Shown here: piece after piece, positions 21,575-62,670 of the stretch
Numbering within the stretch: the stretch's first letter is position 1
Layout of the letters: each line of letters starts with the position of its first letter
DNA from: Acidimicrobiia bacterium
GTDB lineage: Bacteria; Actinomycetota; Acidimicrobiia; Spongiisociales; JAHEDJ01
Length of the DNA: 62,820 nucleotides
Direction of reading: 5' to 3'
NCBI GenBank assembly: GCA_029210695.1
Contig: JARGFH010000018.1
Location: 1-62,820, forward strand
The notes under the pieces: generated by a model
The model's database searches: none
What the model was told of the DNA's origin: nothing
Seen by the model: the letters and a program-made list of their open reading frames with translations, nothing else
Translations under genes and position numbers: made by a program

Positions 21575-21646
21575 GCCGGAGTAGCTCAGGGGTAGAGCAG
21601 CTCACTCGTAATGAGCAGGTCCGGGGTTCGAATCCCCGCTCCGGCT
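21575..21646 (+). tRNA. tRNA-Thr (CGT anticodon)
   Basis: Full cloverleaf by eye: acceptor GCCGGAG pairs with CTCCGGC; D arm GCTC...GAGC; anticodon stem GCTCA/TGAGC with loop CTCGTAA (anticodon CGT); T arm CGGGG-TTCGAAT-CCCCG. 72 nt, no encoded CCA. Confidence 0.96.
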
Positions 21647-34164: not shown

Positions 34165-35694
34165 ATGACTGACGACCCCACCCACCTCGGAAGTGCCGAA
34201 GTCCCGGACGAGGCCGGCCTCGCTGCGCATCCGATCACGGCGCGCCGTCTCGAGAAGCTCGGCGAGATCCGGGCTGCTGGCGGGGAGCCGTATGCCTACC
34301 GGTTCGAACGCACGGCGCTGGCCGCGGACCTCCATGCTGAATATGGAGAACTGGAACCGGGAGTCGAGACGGGTAAGACCGTGGCGGTGGCGGGTCGCGT
34401 TCTCAATGTCCGCAGCTTCGGCAAGCTCATGTTCCCGGTCGTTCTCGATCGGACCGGTCGAATCCAGCTGTTCGTTGCCAGAGACACGCTCGGGCAAGAG
34501 GAGTTCGATCGGTTCGCCGAGGTCGACGGAGGGGATTGGATCGGAGTCGAGGGCGAGATAATCACGACCAAGAAGGGTGAGCTGAGCATCCGCGTTCGGT
34601 CGTGGACCATGCTCTCGAAGTCGCTTCGCCCGTTGCCTGAGAAGTGGCACGGACTCAAAGACGTGGAGCGCCGCTACCGGCAGCGCTACCTCGATCTCAT
34701 CACCAGTGAGCAGGCCCGTGCTGTCGCACTCACGCGGGTCCAGATCATTGCCGAACTTCGCAAGCAGTTCACCGACCGAGGCTACGTCGAGGTCGAGACC
34801 CCGGTTCTGCAGGCGCAGGCAGGCGGAGCGCTGGCGCGGCCCTTCGCAACTCATCACAACGCCCTCGATGTGGACATGTACCTCCGCATTGCCACCGAGT
34901 TGCATCTCAAACGACTGGTAGTCGGCGGCATCGAACGGGTCTTCGAACTCGGCCGCATCTTTCGCAATGAAGGCGTCGACACCACGCACAACCCGGAGTT
35001 CACGACTTTGGAGGCCTACGAAGCCTTCGCAGACTACGGCGACATCATGGAGCTGATGGAACAAGTGATCGGTGCCGTTGCCGAAGCAGCGACGGGCTCG
35101 AGTCTGATCGAGTACGACGGAAAGCCGATTGACCTCACCCCACCGTACCGGCGCGCAACGCTGCTCGATCTTCTTGCAGAAGCGATCGGGCAACCGGTCG
35201 GGTTCGATTGGTCGTTGGAGCAACTGCGGGAACTGGCTGCCGGTAGGGGAATCACGCCGGAGGGAGGCTGGGGGAAGGGCAAGATCATCGCTGAGCTCTA
35301 TGAACACCTCGTTGAACCGGGTCTCTGGGATCCGGTTTTTGTGATCGACCACCCGAAGGAGACTTCGCCACTGGCCAGGATCCATCGCAACGATCCGAAT
35401 CTCACCGAGCGGTTTGAGCTGTTCGCGGGCGGGATGGAACTCTGCAATGCCTTCTCGGAGCTGATCGATCCCATCGATCAGCGGGACCGATTCGAGCAGC
35501 AGGCCCTGGCCAAAGCAGCCGGTGACGACGAGGCGCATCCGATCGACGAGGACTTTGTTCGTGCCCTGGAATATGGGATGCCTCCCACCGGCGGCCTCGG
35601 TATCGGCGTCGACCGCCTGGTCATGTTGCTCACCGACCAGACGACCATCCGCGAGGTCCTGTTGTTCCCGCACTTGAGGCCGGAGCAGCCCTAG
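34165..35694 (+). CDS. lysS: Lysyl-tRNA synthetase, class II
   Basis: 509 aa. An N-terminal OB fold (VAVAGRVLNVRSFGKLMFPV) is followed by a class II core with motif 1 FTDRGYVEVETPVL, motif 2 FELGRIFRNEGVDTTHNPEFT and motif 3 GGLGIGVDRLVMLL. Heptad arrays with different units flank the gene. Standard length; a LysRS without extra membrane domain. Confidence 0.97.
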   Translation: MTDDPTHLGSAEVPDEAGLAAHPITARRLEKLGEIRAAGGEPYAYRFERTALAADLHAEYGELEPGVETGKTVAVAGRVLNVRSFGKLMFPVVLDRTGRIQLFVARDTLGQEEFDRFAEVDGGDWIGVEGEIITTKKGELSIRVRSWTMLSKSLRPLPEKWHGLKDVERRYRQRYLDLITSEQARAVALTRVQIIAELRKQFTDRGYVEVETPVLQAQAGGALARPFATHHNALDVDMYLRIATELHLKRLVVGGIERVFELGRIFRNEGVDTTHNPEFTTLEAYEAFADYGDIMELMEQVIGAVAEAATGSSLIEYDGKPIDLTPPYRRATLLDLLAEAIGQPVGFDWSLEQLRELAAGRGITPEGGWGKGKIIAELYEHLVEPGLWDPVFVIDHPKETSPLARIHRNDPNLTERFELFAGGMELCNAFSELIDPIDQRDRFEQQALAKAAGDDEAHPIDEDFVRALEYGMPPTGGLGIGVDRLVMLLTDQTTIREVLLFPHLRPEQP

Positions 35695-35788: not shown

Positions 35789-35878
35789 TTAAATGGTTAC
35801 CTCGTGAACTATCTTTCGCGTTAAGTCCCGTCTCCGGCCTCCGACTGGCGCTATATGAGCCCAGGGAGGTACTTCGAG

Positions 35879-36769
35879 ATGCGAAAAGGAATGGCGCTGC
35901 TGGCAGGGGTTGCCATAGCCATTGTGACGATCAACCCCGTCCAGGCTTCCTCGATTTCATTCGATCCGGCCGGCGGAAGTGCAGAAGCCGTTGCGGCCGT
36001 GGACAGCGCCATTGGCGTCTTTGAAACATCGTTCTCCGCCAGGGCCTCATGTATCGGCTCGGCGTCAGTCATCTTCGAATCACTGTCGGGCCGCATGGGT
36101 GAGTACCGGACGGCTGAGGCAGTCGTAGCGGTCAACCCGGATCGTGAGGCCGGGACGATGGCGGCCACGGTCTACCACGAACTCGCCCACCACGTAATGC
36201 TCACCTGCCGGGCGCATCGGGATTCCGACTTCATGGCCGCCTTCTATGCGGCACAGGACATTCCCGTCGATCGTGGTTGGTTCGACGGTTCGGCGGGTTG
36301 GAGCGGAATTCCGGCCGAGCAATTCGCCGAGGCGGCCGTCGTCGTTGTGCAAGGAACTGCCGGTGGAGGGATCGCTGTCTCGAGCGAAGCCGTCGATACC
36401 GTGCGGCGCTGGCTGAACGGTCAGCCGATGCCGGTGGCTGCGACGCCGGTGGCTGAAGAGAATGCCGAAAAGCAGGACGCCACCCCCGCACCCGCAGGTG
36501 CATCCGTCACGGTGGCAACCACAACTGAGCCTTCGCCTGCTCCAGCGGCAACTGAAACCGCGGTCGCTCCCGTCGGGGCCGCTCCACTCCCAACGACTAC
36601 AACCGAAGTTCCACAGCCGGCCCCGGTCAAGGCGGCGGCCACACTGGCCTCACCCGCATCGCCGGCGCCCGAGGCCATTCAGGTGGTTGCCGCCGTGCCC
36701 GTAATCGATCGTCCGGCACTTCAAGGGCCGGCCGGCGCCAATCGGGGCGGTTGGATGAGGCCCGAGTAG
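35879..36769 (+). CDS. Secreted putative zinc metallopeptidase with Pro/Ala/Thr tail
   Basis: 296 aa. Signal peptide MRKGMALLAGVAIAIVTINP ending VQA; GGGAGG lies 9 nt upstream of ATG 35879. The zinc helix VYHELAHHVM (HELAH at 100-104) is followed about 50 residues later by EQFAEA, a possible third ligand. Cys58 and a Cys in MLTCRAH could form a disulfide. From about residue 190 the chain is low-complexity Ala/Pro/Thr/Val, suggesting a wall-spanning or glycosylated tail. Family not recognised; peptidase activity is inferred from HExxH only. Confidence 0.65.
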   Translation: MRKGMALLAGVAIAIVTINPVQASSISFDPAGGSAEAVAAVDSAIGVFETSFSARASCIGSASVIFESLSGRMGEYRTAEAVVAVNPDREAGTMAATVYHELAHHVMLTCRAHRDSDFMAAFYAAQDIPVDRGWFDGSAGWSGIPAEQFAEAAVVVVQGTAGGGIAVSSEAVDTVRRWLNGQPMPVAATPVAEENAEKQDATPAPAGASVTVATTTEPSPAPAATETAVAPVGAAPLPTTTTEVPQPAPVKAAATLASPASPAPEAIQVVAAVPVIDRPALQGPAGANRGGWMRPE

Positions 36770-36919: not shown

Positions 36920-37501
36920 TCACAGTTCAATGATGAGCGGGCTGCCCGGCGAGGATCTGGTCCGCAGCGCTTCGACTTGTTCGAGAAGGGAACCTGCCCG
37001 ATGAAACGGTCCCGGTTTGATGGAGACCAGCGTGAAGGCCGGATCCGTCGGAACCAGGCTCGCTCGCTCCGACTCCATTTGCAGGATCGCTCGCAGTCGC
37101 TCGAGGAGTACCTGATTTCCCTCGATCTTGAATTCCCGCAACACGGCCGCGAAGGTCGTGTGGTCGACGTGACCGACCCTGTCGACCTTGCGCAAGGCGG
37201 CCTCCAGCACGGCCTCCAGGTGCTGCTGGATGCCCTGGTGACGTTCGGCCGCGCTCGTGCTGATCGCCTGGAGGCCTGGAATCTCGACGGCGAGAATGGC
37301 GAAGGGGTCGTTGCGGCGAGTCAACCAGTCCAGGGCATCCTGGATGGCGTCGATCACGCCGTTGCGGTTGAGCGTTCCTGTGCTCGGGTCGATCGGTGAG
37401 AGCACGTCGAGCGCCAGGCGAAATTGCCGCAGCTCTTCCTCGCGCTCGGCAAGGAGCCCCTCGAGTTCGTTCGGGTCGCGAATCGGCGGCTGTGGTTCCA
37501 T
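36920..37501 (-). CDS. Degenerate GGDEF-domain protein
   Basis: 193 aa. A short coiled N-terminus is followed by a GGDEF-like fold: DPSTGTLNRNGVIDAIQDAL (usual DxLTGLxNR start), FAILAVEIPG, and VGHVDHTTFAAVL where the GGDEF signature should be. The signature is VDHTTF, so diguanylate cyclase activity is not expected. It could be a c-di-GMP or GTP sensor, or a structural regulator. It is divergent from the FlgL-like gene. Confidence 0.65.
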   Translation of the reverse strand: MEPQPPIRDPNELEGLLAEREEELRQFRLALDVLSPIDPSTGTLNRNGVIDAIQDALDWLTRRNDPFAILAVEIPGLQAISTSAAERHQGIQQHLEAVLEAALRKVDRVGHVDHTTFAAVLREFKIEGNQVLLERLRAILQMESERASLVPTDPAFTLVSIKPGPFHRAGSLLEQVEALRTRSSPGSPLIIEL

Positions 37502-37655
37502 CCGTAATGATGAGGATAGTGGTGACTGGGGGGGCCCGGTCCGCTTATCGGTTGCACGGGACGGCCGACCGGGAAAGACGTGCCGGCCGAGTTGCGCAGA
37601 GTGACCCCGATATGCCGCCGGTTGGGACCAGTAGTCGACGTCCGGTGAGTTGGAT

Positions 37656-38453
37656 ATGAAGGTTCTACGGGAGATCCAGGCCTATTGCACACGGCACGGA
37701 CTCGACGGGCGCATCAATTCGGTAGATGATCTCGATTGGGGGATCGAATCCGATGGAGCAGGGTGGCGGGACGGGTGCACTCGAGCCAACCCGGGGCACA
37801 GCCTCCATGATGAGGTCAGCGGTTGGATACAGGAAGGGAATGATTCGGGAGAGGGACTGGCCTGGATCGAACTCGCCGATCTCCGGCTACGGGTCCTGGT
37901 AGAAGAACTCCAACGGGCGCGGCATCTGGCGACTCGCCTGCAAGGCGTGCTCGACGAGGATCAGCGGACCGCCGCCCGGCAAGAGATCAGCGTTCTAGCC
38001 GAGTCACTTCGAGAGGCGACCACCACGAGCATCGGCGGTGGGCCTGGGTCCCGGTCCGGCGCTGCTTGGGTCTACTGCAGCGGTTCGGGTCGTGTGGTCC
38101 GCAGGACGACGGCCAAAGAGCCGGTCGGCGATGACCTCCCCGATTGTCCCGACCCGGTCCGCCTCCTCGAAGGTCTCATCGATGCGCCGGAAGCCGTCGG
38201 TGCCTTTGAGCGATGCATCGACGAAGTGGGCAGGAGTTTTGCCGGGCTCTCGGATGCCCGCAGGCGTTTGATGGTCAGTCTCTCACGCAGCGTGATCGAG
38301 CAAAGCAAGATCCAATCGCGCTTGCCCGGATTCGACCACGCCTACGCGTCTGCGGTAATCGGTGAACTCCAGACGCAGACGGTCGTCTATCAGGTGACTC
38401 TCGAGGTGCTGTCAAGAGTACTTCAGCCGTCGTTGGTCGATTTTCTCCGCTAG
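37656..38453 (+). CDS. Divergent FlgL/flagellin-like protein
   Basis: 265 aa. The C-terminus VVYQVTLEVLSRVLQPSLVDFLR closely resembles the end of hook-filament junction protein FlgL. Residues 68-120 (LAWIELADLRLRVLVEELQR, then EDQRTAARQEISVLAESL) resemble the N-terminal D1 helices of flagellin-family proteins, and GRINSVDD near residue 18 recalls the SGKRINxPSDDP loop. The first D0 helix is shortened and unlike FlgL, and four cysteines are unusual for this family. A FlgN-like chaperone gene lies next door. ATG 37656 is preferred to TTG 37650. The assignment is from pattern reading; a profile search is needed. Confidence 0.55.
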   Translation: MKVLREIQAYCTRHGLDGRINSVDDLDWGIESDGAGWRDGCTRANPGHSLHDEVSGWIQEGNDSGEGLAWIELADLRLRVLVEELQRARHLATRLQGVLDEDQRTAARQEISVLAESLREATTTSIGGGPGSRSGAAWVYCSGSGRVVRRTTAKEPVGDDLPDCPDPVRLLEGLIDAPEAVGAFERCIDEVGRSFAGLSDARRRLMVSLSRSVIEQSKIQSRLPGFDHAYASAVIGELQTQTVVYQVTLEVLSRVLQPSLVDFLR

Positions 38454-38556
38454 ACCGGTTTGTGGTACATCGAAAGCGACGGTTCTCGTTGTCGATTACG
38501 GCTTCACCGTGGCGGGATCGGCATGCACGATGAGGGCCCGACCTTTTTCCCGGCTC

Positions 38557-39009
38557 TCACCCATCCAGGGGAGTGCCTGCGAGTCGCTCGATGCCGAGTT
38601 GCGCAGCCTCCAACCGTTCACGGGTTGACTGCTCGAGCGATGGCCTGAGCGAATCGATCTCATTCGTCAGAGCTACGAGTTCATCGAGGCGTTGTCCGAG
38701 AGCCTGTGCGTGATCGGGGTGGCCCCGGCTGATGATCGTGCGTAGGGAGAGGTCGTAGTCGTTTATGTGCCATTCCTCGGCGATTCCCGCAACAATCAGC
38801 GCACGCATCATCTCGGTGGTACCGAGCTGGTCTTCGAGGTTCGAGACCTGCCTGGCCGCGGAAGCCAGAGAGCGATCGGGGTGTGACAGGACCAGTTCAC
38901 CGACTTGGCGGAGTCGGGCCAAGAGGCTTTCGAGGATATCGCGTTCCCTACGCAGGATCTCCAGGAGCGGCTCGACCCCGGGTTGCAGCATGAGCATCAG
39001 TTCGTTCAC
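38557..39009 (-). CDS. FlgN-like export-chaperone protein
   Basis: 150 aa, almost entirely alpha-helical. The N-terminal LLEILRRERDILESLLARLRQ, then LSHPDRSLASAARQVSNLED and LSLRTIISRG, match the long antiparallel helices of FlgN, the chaperone that binds the C-termini of FlgK and FlgL. It stands between a FlgL-like gene and a FliA-type sigma gene, which supports the call. No motif makes it certain. Confidence 0.5.
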   Translation of the reverse strand: MNELMLMLQPGVEPLLEILRRERDILESLLARLRQVGELVLSHPDRSLASAARQVSNLEDQLGTTEMMRALIVAGIAEEWHINDYDLSLRTIISRGHPDHAQALGQRLDELVALTNEIDSLRPSLEQSTRERLEAAQLGIERLAGTPLDG

Positions 39010-39140
39010 CTGAGGCCTCCATCGAATCTAGGCCGGCGCGGTTTCCTGCATTTGGCCTGTCGGCGGGCCGGCCGCCTGTTCAAGCTCCGGAGTAATAGCT
39101 CGCCTTTTCGCCTCGAAATCGGAATGTGACTAAACGCGAA

Positions 39141-39172
39141 TAGCACTCAAGAACCCTGCATCCGGGTGCCGA
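39141..39172 (+). promoter_or_regulatory. Candidate FliA (sigma-28)-type promoter before fliA-like gene
   Basis: An ACTCAAG block near 39145 is followed at roughly normal spacing by GCCGATGA (39166-39173), close to the flagellar -10 GCCGATAA. A TGACTAG...CTAGTTAC near-palindrome overlaps its downstream side (39171-39208). This would allow autoregulation of the sigma gene. The spacing is slightly long. Confidence 0.4.
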
Positions 39173-39238
39173 TGACTAGAAAGTAGCTACAACAAAGAAC
39201 TAGTTACACACCAGGGACAACCGGACAAGGACAAGATC

Positions 39239-40075
39239 ATGGCCTATTCGGACCGGAATCAGCTTGCCACCGATCACCTCGAGCTCGTGGGTCACATCGT
39301 CGCAGAAGTATCGGTTCGCTATCCGCGTCACGTCGATCGCAACGAGTTGTGGAACGCCGGGGCACTCGGCCTTGTCGAAGCCTCCCGACGATTCAATGAG
39401 GATGCCGGCATTCCGTTTGCCCGATACGCCGCTATCCGGATTCGCGGAGCCATCATCGATTCCACCCGGACGCGCGACTGGGCGACGCGGTCGGTGCGGC
39501 GCAACCTCCGTGAGATCCAGCAGGCGACCTCGGATTTCGAAGAGCACACCGGCCGCCGCCCCAGCGACGATGACCTGGCCACGACGCTCGGCATCACCAC
39601 CATGGAGCTCTCCGCCCAGAAAGCCCAGGAGGGCCACAGCACCCTCCTGCATCTCGATCAGGAAGATTCCGATGAGTCGCCCTTGCGGGATCAGGTCGCC
39701 GAGCAGCGCTCACAGGCTCTCCCGGAGCAGGCGCTCGAGCAACGTGAGCTGTTCGGTACCCTCAAGACGGCAATCGAGCTTCTTCCATCGACGCAAGCAG
39801 AGGTTGTCACTCGCTACTACCTGCAGGGAGAATCCCTTCAGGACATTGCAGACGATCTGAAGGTCACCGAGGCCAGGGTTTCACAGATCCGGGCCGAGGC
39901 GCTGGCTGCCATCCGGGCATACTTTTCGACTCTCTACGAGGGTCTTCCGGAAGTTGCGGCCGCGACACCCGGCAGGCGGGCGCGAGCGTCATACCTGTCG
40001 GTCATGTCGGAGAACACCACGTGGCGCACACGCCTGGATGGCGGTCGCCGCCCGGATAACACGCTCGCAGTCTGA
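39239..40075 (+). CDS. RNA polymerase sigma factor of the FliA/WhiG family
   Basis: 278 aa with sigma regions 2, 3 and 4. Region 2: VDRNELWNAGALGLVEASRR, FARYAAIRIRGAIIDSTR; then DWATRSVRRNLREIQQATSDF; region 3: RRPSDDDLATTLGITTMEL; region 4: LLPSTQAEVVTRYYLQGESLQDIADDLKVTEARVSQIRAEALAAIR. This is the group of motility (FliA) and sporulation (WhiG) sigmas. Neighbours resemble flagellar export genes, so FliA is the better guess. The last 45 residues are a basic, divergent tail. Confidence 0.85.
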   Translation: MAYSDRNQLATDHLELVGHIVAEVSVRYPRHVDRNELWNAGALGLVEASRRFNEDAGIPFARYAAIRIRGAIIDSTRTRDWATRSVRRNLREIQQATSDFEEHTGRRPSDDDLATTLGITTMELSAQKAQEGHSTLLHLDQEDSDESPLRDQVAEQRSQALPEQALEQRELFGTLKTAIELLPSTQAEVVTRYYLQGESLQDIADDLKVTEARVSQIRAEALAAIRAYFSTLYEGLPEVAAATPGRRARASYLSVMSENTTWRTRLDGGRRPDNTLAV

Positions 40076-40172: not shown

Positions 40173-41645
40173 TTACGTATGGTCCGAGCCTTTCGTCGTC
40201 CGCAGATCGTCCGCAGTGAGATCGATCACCGCAGGCCGGGTGGACTCGACCGAAGGAGTGAAGCCGCGGCGATCCAGGCTTCCCCACGTGTGGTCGCCGC
40301 GCAACGCCGAGACTATGCCCTTGATGCGCCACCACGTTGACAGCTGCCGGTATCCGAAATTCTCGATCAGCGCCACCACGATCATTCGCCCCAAGTCGGC
40401 CGGTCTCGTGTACCGGCGAAACGACAACTCCTCCAGGGCCACCGCTGCTACCGACAGCGCAACGCCGGCAGCCACCGCCAGCGCTAGGAAAGCCAGCACA
40501 TATTGCAGAGGGGCATTTCCGGTGACCGCAGCCCACAGGAAGAACGCAAATCCGACGGCTTCGATGATCGGCCCGATGACTTCAAAGATCGTGTAGTAGG
40601 TGAATCCGATCAGACCGGGCGGACCGTAGCGCGGGTTGCCGAACATCCGCCGGTGGCGCCAGAGGGTCTGCACCAGACCCCGCTGCCACCGGTCACGCTG
40701 CCGGCCGAGGCTCTTGAGGTCTTCCGGGGCTTCCGTCCAGGCAACCGGGTCCGGCACGAAGTTGATCCGGTACTTGATCTCTTTCTCCCGGCAATATCGA
40801 TGCAGGCGGACGACGAGTTCCATGTCTTCTCCGACTGTGTCGGTGGAGAACCCGCCGACCTGCGCAACGATCGCCCGCTTGAACACACCGAATGCCCCGG
40901 AGATGATGAGGGTCGATCGCAGCACATCCCAGCCGACCCGGGTGGCGAGGAAGGCACGGAGGTATTCGATGACCTGAAAGCGGGCTACCAAGTTCGTCGG
41001 TAGCAACACCTGGCGAACGATGCCACCCTCGACGATGCAGCCGTTGGCGATGCGAACGATTCCTCCCGCCGCGATTGTCGTCCGGTCCTCGAGAAACGGG
41101 CGAACGAGGCGGGGCAGTGCCTCCGGTTCGAGCAGCGTGTCGGCGTCCATCGCGCAGAACAATGGAGTCCGGGCGTGGTTGAGGCCGGCGTTCAGGCTGT
41201 CGGCCTTGCCCCCGTTTTCTTTGTCGATTACCCACAGGTTCGGATGGCGGCCCGCCCGGTATACCGCCCGCACCGGAGCAGTTGAGAGCGACGAACTCGG
41301 GGTGCGTTCCGCCGTTTCCAGCTCGAAGGCCTCTATCAGGTGATCGAGTGTGCGGTCCGTTGAGCCGTCGTTCACGACGATGATCTCGTAGTCCGAATAC
41401 TGCAGGGTGAGTAGTGATCGGACCGACTCGACGATGCCGGCGACCTCATTGAACGCTGGCATGACCAGGGTGATCGGCATTCCCCCGGCTGCGTTGACGA
41501 GATCGCTGATGTGGAGTGACTCGAGGCGCCCGACGTATTTCTTGAGATGGAGGAAGGCCAGAATGCTCGTGGTCATGTAGATGACATTGAGAGCCAGGAA
41601 ATAGGCGAGGATCACTACGCTGACGACGGTGATCGCAGTGGTCAT
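40173..41645 (-). CDS. Processive family 2 glycosyltransferase (membrane polysaccharide synthase)
   Basis: 490 aa. One N-terminal helix, a GT2 domain with DGSTD (93-97), DADT (167-170), GED (Asp274) and QRDRW (316-320), the D,D,D,QxxRW set of processive synthases such as hyaluronan synthase and PgaC. Then come three or more C-terminal helices. It would polymerise and export a polysaccharide from a UDP-sugar. It is coupled by ATGA overlap to a HEAT-repeat protein and follows a response regulator in one operon. There is no PilZ domain. Confidence 0.88.
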   Translation of the reverse strand: MTTAITVVSVVILAYFLALNVIYMTTSILAFLHLKKYVGRLESLHISDLVNAAGGMPITLVMPAFNEVAGIVESVRSLLTLQYSDYEIIVVNDGSTDRTLDHLIEAFELETAERTPSSSLSTAPVRAVYRAGRHPNLWVIDKENGGKADSLNAGLNHARTPLFCAMDADTLLEPEALPRLVRPFLEDRTTIAAGGIVRIANGCIVEGGIVRQVLLPTNLVARFQVIEYLRAFLATRVGWDVLRSTLIISGAFGVFKRAIVAQVGGFSTDTVGEDMELVVRLHRYCREKEIKYRINFVPDPVAWTEAPEDLKSLGRQRDRWQRGLVQTLWRHRRMFGNPRYGPPGLIGFTYYTIFEVIGPIIEAVGFAFFLWAAVTGNAPLQYVLAFLALAVAAGVALSVAAVALEELSFRRYTRPADLGRMIVVALIENFGYRQLSTWWRIKGIVSALRGDHTWGSLDRRGFTPSVESTRPAVIDLTADDLRTTKGSDHT

Positions 41646-42709
41646 GCGACCTTCTCCATGATCGCTTCTCGGGCCAGCGCCGCCATTGGGTGGCCGCTTT
41701 CCACCATGGCCTCGAGCCGCGCCGCGCCACCCGCCTCCACCATGGCTTGGGCCGAGTTGATGGCGACCCAGGGTTCGGGGTCTGCCATTCCTCGCTCGAG
41801 CAGCTCGAGGTCGACCGCTTCGCCGACGGTCCCCAGCACCCGCAAGGCCAGGGCTCGCAGCACGAAGTCCCTGCTGGTCGCGCAGCTCCTGGCGATCGGC
41901 AGGTGCTCCGGTCCGCCCACCGCTCTGAGCAGACGTAGTGAAGCCGCTGCGAGTTCCCGGTCGGGAGTTCCGTTGAGGATCCCGGCTGCAACGTCGGCGG
42001 CGGCGGGGTCGGTGAGGAGGCTGAGGGCGTCTGCGGCAACGGCCCGATCGAGGGGGTCACGGTTGCTCCGCAGGTACGACCGGAGTGCCGGAGCCACCTC
42101 GGACCCCATGGAGGCCAGCATGCTGGAGAGGAAGCGGCTGTTCCACCTGGCATAGCGGTGGAGATTGAAGAGGACGTCGTCGATGTACGCCGGCTGGCGC
42201 GATGCTGAGAGCGTCCGTGCCGCCACCATCGAAACGAGCGCTGAGGGATCATCGAGTGCCCCGGCGACTATCGGGCCGTATTGCGCCATACCGAGGGTCG
42301 CCAGCGTTTGCACGGCGAAGGCGCGCCGCTCAGGGTTCCGGGCCTTGAGGTCTCTCACGATCATCGGCAGGTGTGGTGTGGCGAGGTCGACGACCACCCG
42401 GCGGTCGCCGCCGGACAGGAGGCGGGCATAGCGGACGAGGAACTTCAGGAAGTGTCTCCTCGAGCGCGATGTGACGGTGGCGTGAAGCCGGGAGGCGGGG
42501 ATGGATCCGTCGATGACGTCGAGGAGCAAGGGCTCCCAGCTCGCCTCGTAGGAGTTGTAGCGGCGAGCACGAAGCACGTTGCGGATCCGCATTGAGAAGG
42601 CCACTCCGGCCAGATACAAGACGACTGCGACGATGGCGAGCGTCGACCAGAGCACGACGGTGATCAATGAACCCGTCGCCCACGCTGGAGAGGTTCCGCC
42701 GGACCACAT
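41642..42709 (-). CDS. Membrane-anchored HEAT-repeat protein
   Basis: 355 aa. One N-terminal membrane helix (residues about 15-40) is followed by a basic segment and helical repeats of HEAT type (NPERRAFAVQTLATLGM, DPSALVSMVAARTLSAS, PLDRAVAADALSLLTDPAA, SRDFVLRALALRVLGTVG, DPEPWVAINSAQAMVEAGG). HEAT solenoids are protein-binding scaffolds. It sits between a GGDEF-REC regulator and a glycosyltransferase, and likely couples the signal to the synthase (inference). Confidence 0.8.
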   Translation of the reverse strand: MWSGGTSPAWATGSLITVVLWSTLAIVAVVLYLAGVAFSMRIRNVLRARRYNSYEASWEPLLLDVIDGSIPASRLHATVTSRSRRHFLKFLVRYARLLSGGDRRVVVDLATPHLPMIVRDLKARNPERRAFAVQTLATLGMAQYGPIVAGALDDPSALVSMVAARTLSASRQPAYIDDVLFNLHRYARWNSRFLSSMLASMGSEVAPALRSYLRSNRDPLDRAVAADALSLLTDPAAADVAAGILNGTPDRELAAASLRLLRAVGGPEHLPIARSCATSRDFVLRALALRVLGTVGEAVDLELLERGMADPEPWVAINSAQAMVEAGGAARLEAMVESGHPMAALAREAIMEKVA

Positions 42710-42721
42710 GACGGTCGGCGG

Positions 42722-43549
42722 CTACTTCGCCAGCAGACGCTGGACCCGGAGGGCGAGCTCTGTCGGCGAGAACGGCTTCAGGATGTAGTCATCGGCTCCG
42801 CCGGACAGTGCGCGTACAACGTCCTGTTCGGCGCCCATCCCGGTGAGCATTACCACGGGAGTTGAGGCCAAATTCGGGTCTTCCTTGAATCGGCCAAGGA
42901 GTTCGAAACCGTCCATTCGTGGCATCTTCACGTCGAATATCGCCAGGGCATAGGGTTGGGGACCGGCTGCCTGAGCAGCTTCGAGCGCGCTCTGGCCATC
43001 CGGATGATGCACGACCACATAGCCCTCCCGTTGAAGGCGATGGATGATCAGCCGGTCGGTGAGGGTGTCGTCTTCGGCGAGAAGGATCGTGCGCCGGTCA
43101 CCGGTTGCTTCAGTTTGGATCTGCACTCTGTCACCTCCTTTCGCCTGTGCATCCGATCGAAGCAGTCTTGCAGTATCGAGGGTCAGTTGGCGGTCATCGT
43201 TCCTGGTGTCGGCGGCGAGACCCGCGGAGAAGCTGACCATCACGTCCGGGATATCTGCCCGGTTCCTGACCCGAAGGCGCGCCGTTTCCAGGAAACCGGC
43301 TGCTTCAGTCCGGTCGAGGTCGGGGAAAACGCAGACGATTTCGTCACCTACGCCGGGGAAACGTGTGGCCGGGGGTTCGAGGTGGGCGGCCAGCAATTCG
43401 TCCACCAGTTGCGCGGCAGTTTCTGTGTCGACCGGGGTCGCCGAGCCTTCCGAGGGGAACGCTTCGGGCATGATCGACGCTACCGTCATCAGCTGCCGCT
43501 TCGATGAGTGCGGGCGCGGCGGCTCGGTGCGGGCGCGGTCGTCGATCAC
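42722..43549 (-). CDS. Hybrid regulator: degenerate GGDEF-like domain plus C-terminal receiver
   Basis: 275 aa. Residues about 45-145 look like the second half of a GGDEF domain: VGDEIVCVFPD in place of GGDEF, VSFSAGLA, then TLDTARLLRSDAQAKGGDRV. Residues 153-275 are a complete receiver: acidic pair in LLAEDD, phosphoacceptor Asp206 in AIFDVKMPRMDG, Lys258 in YILKPFSP. The receiver is C-terminal, opposite to usual PleD-type order, and the cyclase part looks inactive or truncated. It is the first gene of the operon with HEAT and GT2. Confidence 0.78.
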   Translation of the reverse strand: MIDDRARTEPPRPHSSKRQLMTVASIMPEAFPSEGSATPVDTETAAQLVDELLAAHLEPPATRFPGVGDEIVCVFPDLDRTEAAGFLETARLRVRNRADIPDVMVSFSAGLAADTRNDDRQLTLDTARLLRSDAQAKGGDRVQIQTEATGDRRTILLAEDDTLTDRLIIHRLQREGYVVVHHPDGQSALEAAQAAGPQPYALAIFDVKMPRMDGFELLGRFKEDPNLASTPVVMLTGMGAEQDVVRALSGGADDYILKPFSPTELALRVQRLLAK

Positions 43550-62597: not shown

Positions 62598-62670
62598 GCC
62601 GGGTTAGCTCAGTCGGTAGAGCGCTTCTCTTGTAAAGAAGTGGTCGTCGGTTCGATTCCGACACCCGGCT
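62598..62670 (+). tRNA. tRNA-Thr (TGT anticodon)
   Basis: Cloverleaf by eye: acceptor GCCGGGT with ACCCGGC; D arm GCTC...GAGC; anticodon stem CTTCT/AGAAG with loop CTTGTAA (TGT); T arm GTCGG-TTCGATT-CCGAC. No encoded CCA. Second Thr isoacceptor in the window. Confidence 0.96.

Follow-up and report, generated by a model that had tools for sequence, protein, structure and literature searches.

On many occasions Actinobacteria have lost their flagella; what became of the leftover regulators is known mainly for WhiG. In Salmonella, a loop by which FlgN and the cargo proteins FlgK and FlgL act back on sigma-28 has been described (Aldridge et al. 2003, as cited in PMC5932034), and FlgN docks on FlhA through its C-terminal region, Tyr122 (PMC5932034). 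The disordered C-terminus of the cargo is the part that flagellar chaperones bind (PMC8527033). FlgM is reported to be missing from later actinobacterial classes (PMC10746217). In this study, we analyzed a stretch of 62,820 nucleotides (the window), which is contig C18 of the draft assembly G000 of an Acidimicrobiia bacterium (3.9 Mb, 181 contigs, 97.85% complete), and in it a block of four genes encoding a degenerate GGDEF protein, a FlgL-like protein, a FlgN-like protein and a FliA/WhiG-family sigma factor. The block is the residue of a complete flagellar island that was lost at the same site, next to the lysyl-tRNA synthetase gene, and it originated by reduction. We regard it, with a probability of about 0.6, as a maintained regulatory remnant, in which FliA now serves pili, sensing and the surface, and FlgN and the FlgL tail form a modulating pair.

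The block is present in four species of the genus, namely the window genome (G000), G001, G002 and G003. A contig scan of public collections yielded only two of the same congeners, the metagenome-assembled isolates Ww199 and Ww198. The open reading frames (ORFs) of the four genes, all named in the first-pass annotation, were confirmed in their coordinates by an ORF check. The features are as follows.

34165..35694, + strand: lysyl-tRNA synthetase, a positional anchor outside the module and given for context only; the same gene lies beside the flagellar island in G033 and G053.
36920..37501, - strand: degenerate GGDEF-domain protein, 193 amino acids (Pfam GGDEF E=2.2e-4).
37656..38453, + strand: FlgL-like protein, 265 amino acids (TIGR02550 E=9e-8; FlgL profile of relatives E=1.2e-22).
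38325..38453, + strand: conserved C-terminal tail of the FlgL-like protein, its last 42 residues (...YQVTLEVLSRVLQPSLVDFLR) and the stop; 57% identity to G003.
38557..39009, - strand: FlgN-like chaperone, 150 amino acids, orthologous to the second flgN, the one next to fliA (Pfam FlgN E=1.6e-4; hhalign 99.0%).
39147..39175, + strand: predicted sigma-28-type promoter of fliA, TCAAG-N16-GCCGATGA, conserved in G000-G003.
39239..40075, + strand: FliA/WhiG-family sigma factor, 278 amino acids (TIGR02479 E=6e-52).

The gene order in the four species is lysyl-tRNA synthetase, GGDEF(-), flgL(+), flgN2(-) and fliA(+). In the flagellated relative G033 it is lysyl-tRNA synthetase, flbD, GGDEF(-), then flgN1, flgK, flgL, fliW and csrA (all +), flgN2(-) and fliA(+), and past fliA there are an HDOD gene and export genes with flhA; the names of the island genes were assigned by family knowledge and comparison. 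G075 and G027 share the order of G033 from GGDEF to fliA, with flhA nearby, and the island begins at the same lysyl-tRNA synthetase gene in both G033 and G053. Since this order occurs in three families, we infer that the G033-like order is ancestral. Comparison of the two gene orders indicates that the genus has lost flgN1-flgK, fliW-csrA and the large section of structural and export genes. The four kept genes, formerly non-contiguous, are thus predicted to have been left by several separate deletions, their order and strands unchanged. The deletions also took out genes from among the retained ones, so that the retained set is more than a stretch that escaped deletion. Among the options of the first-pass annotation, a detached part of a flagellar regulon came nearest; the block is what remained of an island lost at this site, not a piece detached from elsewhere.

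The FlgL-like protein matched the NCBIfam FlgL model TIGR02550 at 31.9 bits, under the curated cut-off of 127.2, and best in its C-terminal 33 residues; it matched PRK06663 FlgL with E=1.8e-6. A FlgL profile built from nine flagellated relatives hit it in two domains, whereas all unrelated window ORFs gave E>0.4, a separation of about twenty orders of magnitude; the decoys were the 587 window ORFs, one of which is the FlgL-like ORF itself. In hhalign against FlgL of flagellated relatives from the same taxonomic order, the probability was 99.4%. The C-terminal D0/D1 signature of FlgL is present, and the N-terminal D0 helix is missing or unrecognisable, the profile matches beginning at position 61 of 294. 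Outside the genus, matches to the FlgL-like protein fell in flagellated (FlhA+) genomes with the sole exception of G040, where the match is weak (E=8e-4) and carries two in-frame stops. The FlgN-like protein is below the gathering score of Pfam FlgN in the window, as it is in all four species (E ~1e-4), and a profile search of solved structures with it returned nothing relevant. It matched the FlgN genes within the flagellar islands of relatives down to 6e-15 and FlgN2 of flagellated relatives with an hhalign probability of 99.0%, and every FlgN match outside the genus was in an FlhA-bearing genome. The comparisons with flagellated relatives, by hhalign for both proteins and by the FlgL profile, make the otherwise weak FlgN and FlgL assignments firm.

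The sigma factor matched TIGR02479 FliA_WhiG over residues 10-228 (176.6 bits against a cut-off of 189.6), and has Pfam sigma-70 regions r2, r3 and r4 in the FliA/WhiG arrangement. Its identity is 95, 78 and 77% in the congeners and 59% to G033 across 204 residues. The protein of 36920-37501 has GHVDH in place of the GGDEF signature and is without an intact diguanylate cyclase active site. It has orthologues in the three congeners and homologues in the islands of G033, G005, G012 and G075; since the signatures read GHVDH, GRVDD or GRIDE, this protein is degenerate in flagellated relatives too. All four family assignments of the first-pass annotation therefore hold, the FlgL assignment with its N-terminal D0 helix unrecognised. 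That annotation had named a lack of any profile similarity to FlgL and FlgN as the result that would speak against it; hidden Markov model and profile comparison found the similarity.

The genus consists of uncultured, flagellum-less actinobacteria from which the tested flagellar families are gone. Flagellin_N was not found in the window genome by family search. Five congeneric genomes, three of them >90% complete and one only 56% complete, contained no FlhA (PF00771) and nothing above cut-off for Flg_bbr_C, the C-terminal domain of hook and rod proteins, or for FliG_C; MotAB was not searched. FlhA was found in 12 of the 79 genomes searched. Some FliG_C matches stayed below cut-off; most of them lie in ORFs of about 475 amino acids, and they are probably MgtE-type transporters. 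The earlier remark that no flagellar gene lies within 30 kb of the block is thereby widened, for these families, to the genomes.

All four reading frames are open in all four species, and the genes appear, from their codon changes, to be mostly under purifying selection. Between G000 and G001, the ratio of nonsynonymous to synonymous substitution rates (dN/dS) was 0.08 for FliA, 0.18 for GGDEF, 0.20 for FlgN and 0.34 for FlgL (95% bootstrap 0.23-0.49). Over the comparisons it ranged from 0.08 to 0.12 for FliA and from 0.13 to 0.28 for GGDEF, and in another comparison it was 0.35 for FlgN. FlgL is cut to 73 amino acids in G002 and 81 in G003, and the N-terminal half is absent. The short genes have a conserved start and an upstream GGGAGA motif, and their indels are multiples of three within the frame and mostly not beyond the stop. 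Against the FlgL profile, the 81-residue protein aligned to positions 255-294 (E=1.8e-9) and the 73-residue one to positions 261-294 of 294 (E=6.9e-8). The final 40 residues are the only part of FlgL kept in all four species; tail residues 224-265 of the window protein retain 57% identity to G003, and between the two species pairs synonymous change has almost reached saturation. By analogy with described chaperone-cargo pairs, the kept tail would be the type of segment that flagellar chaperones bind.

FlgN, for its part, lacks the predicted docking tail for FlhA. A tyrosine in a short C-terminal tail was found in 11 of 11 FlgN1 and 7 of 8 FlgN2 proteins of flagellated relatives, and in none of the four species of the genus. 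Loss of the dock with retention of the core, beside the retained FlgL tail, fits a predicted pair that interacts and does not export.

Upstream of fliA, the TCAAG-N16-GCCGATGA block is conserved in the four species while the surrounding intergenic DNA has diverged, and a similar element lies upstream of fliA in the flagellated G033 and G075. From the conserved element we derived the search pattern TCAAG-N15-17-YCGATA. With it, 61 sites were found in the four genomes; the reversed pattern, used as the control, gave 17. Of 58 distinct sites, 36 are intergenic and at most 330 bases upstream of a gene on the same strand, compared with 3.9% of random positions, although the p-value of this placement is overstated because orthologous sites are not independent. 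The canonical flagellar promoter (the TAAA / GCCGATAA kind) is rare, TAAA-N14-17-GCCGATA having only two sites in the four genomes. Sites precede genes for a PilV-like prepilin, CheA and CAP-domain secreted proteins in all four genomes, a type IV pilin gene (N_methyl E=2e-8) in G002 and G003, and a gene for an HD-GYP-type protein in G000; other downstream genes encode sensor kinases, a GAF protein and M23/SLH proteins. A candidate target in L047 was dropped as a member of a repeat family with many paralogues. Upstream of the GGDEF gene a CGATA-like box is conserved with no matching -35 element, and we claim no promoter there. FliA appears to be active and to read predicted promoters of pili, sensory and surface genes, its recognition of them being deduced from the sites.

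In all four genomes, one conserved site is followed by an element of about 175 bases with 98% identity between the species, in clearly more diverged flanking DNA. The element ends in a long terminal hairpin (fold z = -7.65) and reached no Rfam family at the gathering score. It is a probable FliA-dependent structured small RNA, as judged from its site, conservation and predicted fold.

L162:5580-5764 (= G000 contig C10 about 81580-81764), - strand: element of about 175 bases; orthologues at L163:5528-5712, L164:1876-2060 and L161:5701-5885.

We propose the following scheme. The ancestor of the genus would have lost the flagellum and the export gate and kept four regulatory and interaction genes under selection. 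FliA promoters would now stand before genes for type IV pilin, CheA-type proteins, signalling kinases, HD-GYP and secreted surface proteins, before fliA itself and before the structured small RNA. FlgN and the C-terminal tail of FlgL may be a leftover chaperone-ligand pair, presumed to bind and unable to export. The most likely role of this pair, together with the dead GGDEF protein, would be to modulate how active FliA is or what becomes of its regulon, with free FlgN and tail-bound FlgN as the two states of the switch, as in the Salmonella loop of FlgN-FlgK/FlgL on sigma-28. A direct or indirect link to FliA is plausible because of the Salmonella feedback and the reported lack of FlgM; that the pair regulates FliA is nevertheless put forward tentatively, by analogy. 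An export-free chaperone switch, in which FlgN and a soluble FlgL-tail ligand would control a sigma factor reassigned to pili and surface sensing, is likewise a possibility rather than an expectation.

Some results weigh against the proposed remnant. The pilin promoter match is found in G002 and G003 and not in the other two species. An AlphaFold2 model of FlgN, built from three sequences, reached a predicted local distance difference test score (pLDDT) of 54, too weak to confirm the fold or search folds. The cyclic di-GMP-binding motif of RsiG, which we take to be E-x3-S-x2-R-x3-Q-x3-D, was absent from the retrieved loci; whole genomes were not searched, so that an RsiG-type anti-sigma factor may be encoded elsewhere in them. 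The second FlgN of the flagellated G027 (L097:4403-4741, - strand), which is the closest to the genus FlgN, is also without the tyrosine tail. For this reason, the tail may have been lost before the flagellum, and FlgN2 may have acted as a non-docking regulator while the cell was still flagellated. Also on this side are two dN/dS values, 0.53 for FlgN between G003 and G002 (bootstrap 0.29-0.93) and 0.58 for the fast-evolving short FlgL (bootstrap 0.35-0.99). As 0.58 is only slightly below 1, selection on the short FlgL rests mainly on the kept frame and the similarity across the deep split.

The same two values would be expected if FliA alone were in use and flgL, flgN and the GGDEF gene were slowly decaying leftovers, flgL being the most advanced. 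The state of FlgL, truncated in two species and without the N-terminal D0 region in the remaining two, agrees with such decay, and WhiG is a known case of a FliA-type sigma factor co-opted in the absence of a flagellum (PMC8325347). But all frames are open in the four species, dN/dS is lower elsewhere (FlgN 0.20 and 0.35, GGDEF 0.13-0.28, FlgL 0.34 with bootstrap well below 1), and the same FlgL tail has been kept in all four despite near-saturated synonymous sites. We hold decay to be rather unlikely. The word relic, another option of the first-pass annotation, describes the origin of the block and probably not its status, given open frames in four species and, in most comparisons, a dN/dS well under 1. 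Alternatively, FlgN and the FlgL tail might have a new job unrelated to FliA, for example as chaperone or anchor of a surface or pilus protein, with the neighbours kept by inheritance. In flagellated relatives, flgN2 and fliA are already adjacent, which is compatible with this reading: their being neighbours does not by itself argue for a functional link. The loss of the intervening genes, leaving more than a simple undeleted stretch, and the Salmonella precedent of a FlgN-sigma-28 link, as far as PMC5932034 recounts it, make such a job improbable.

Two further explanations are very poorly compatible with the data. A FlgL homologue and a chaperone homologue side by side had suggested to the first-pass annotation a repurposed flagellin-like export system, which we reject: FlhA is absent from all five congeners, FlgN is without the docking tyrosine tail, and FlgL is without the N-terminal D0 helix and, in two species, down to 73-81 residues. 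The flagellar genes could also be missing merely through incomplete assembly, all assemblies being fragmented drafts (181 contigs for G000), but four genomes that are 97.85, 87, 97 and 92% complete lack FlhA together, and the island site is contiguous in all four species and holds only the four genes. A draft artefact is therefore rejected as well.

Directly after fliA, in all four species, lies a group encoding a glycosyltransferase family 2 protein, a HEAT-repeat protein and a response regulator (40173-43549, - strand), possibly a surface-polysaccharide unit. Its response regulator (42722-43549, - strand) has an extra N-terminal part in G000 and G001, which may be half a GGDEF domain (a very weak match), and consists of the receiver domain only in G002 and G003. 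Between the lysyl-tRNA synthetase and GGDEF genes, in G000 and G001 only, is a gene for a putative secreted metallopeptidase (35855-36769, + strand; DUF6782-like, E=2e-4). The window also contains two tRNA genes, at 21575-21646 and 62598-62670 (+).

The block shares with actinobacterial flagellar islands (PMC10746217; G033, G075, G027) the order and strands of GGDEF, flgL, flgN2 and fliA, and with the islands of G033 and G053 the lysyl-tRNA synthetase neighbour, but all tested structural, motor and export genes are gone from it. Like the WhiG-RsiG switch of Rubrobacter (PMC8325347), it has an actinobacterial FliA-family sigma factor and flagellar-sigma-type promoters before type IV pilus and signalling genes. 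It differs in that the sigma factor stands beside a flgN and flgL remnant inherited from a flagellar island, and that RsiG was not seen in the sequence at hand, no genome-wide search having been made. The FliT-FliD-FlhDC loop (PMC5493677) resembles the proposed switch, since there an export chaperone, once it has let go of its cargo, targets a regulator of transcription; however, the chaperone, cargo and target are others, and that loop needs export, which is impossible here. With the FlgN loop of Salmonella, as the citing article outlines it, the block has the families FlgN, FlgL and FliA in common, and there the chaperone-cargo status is tied to flagellar gene output. Here, in contrast, there is no flagellum, export gate or FlgK in the block, and in two species only the C-terminal end of the cargo is left. 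A sigma factor has thus been kept with an export chaperone and, at the extreme, only the piece of cargo to which such chaperones bind. Should the pair control FliA, the regulatory role of the chaperone would be separated from its export role, which is hard to do in a flagellated cell, and a minimal ligand of 73 residues would be available. If the chaperone switch is true, an assembly-checkpoint circuit can outlive the organelle that it once monitored.

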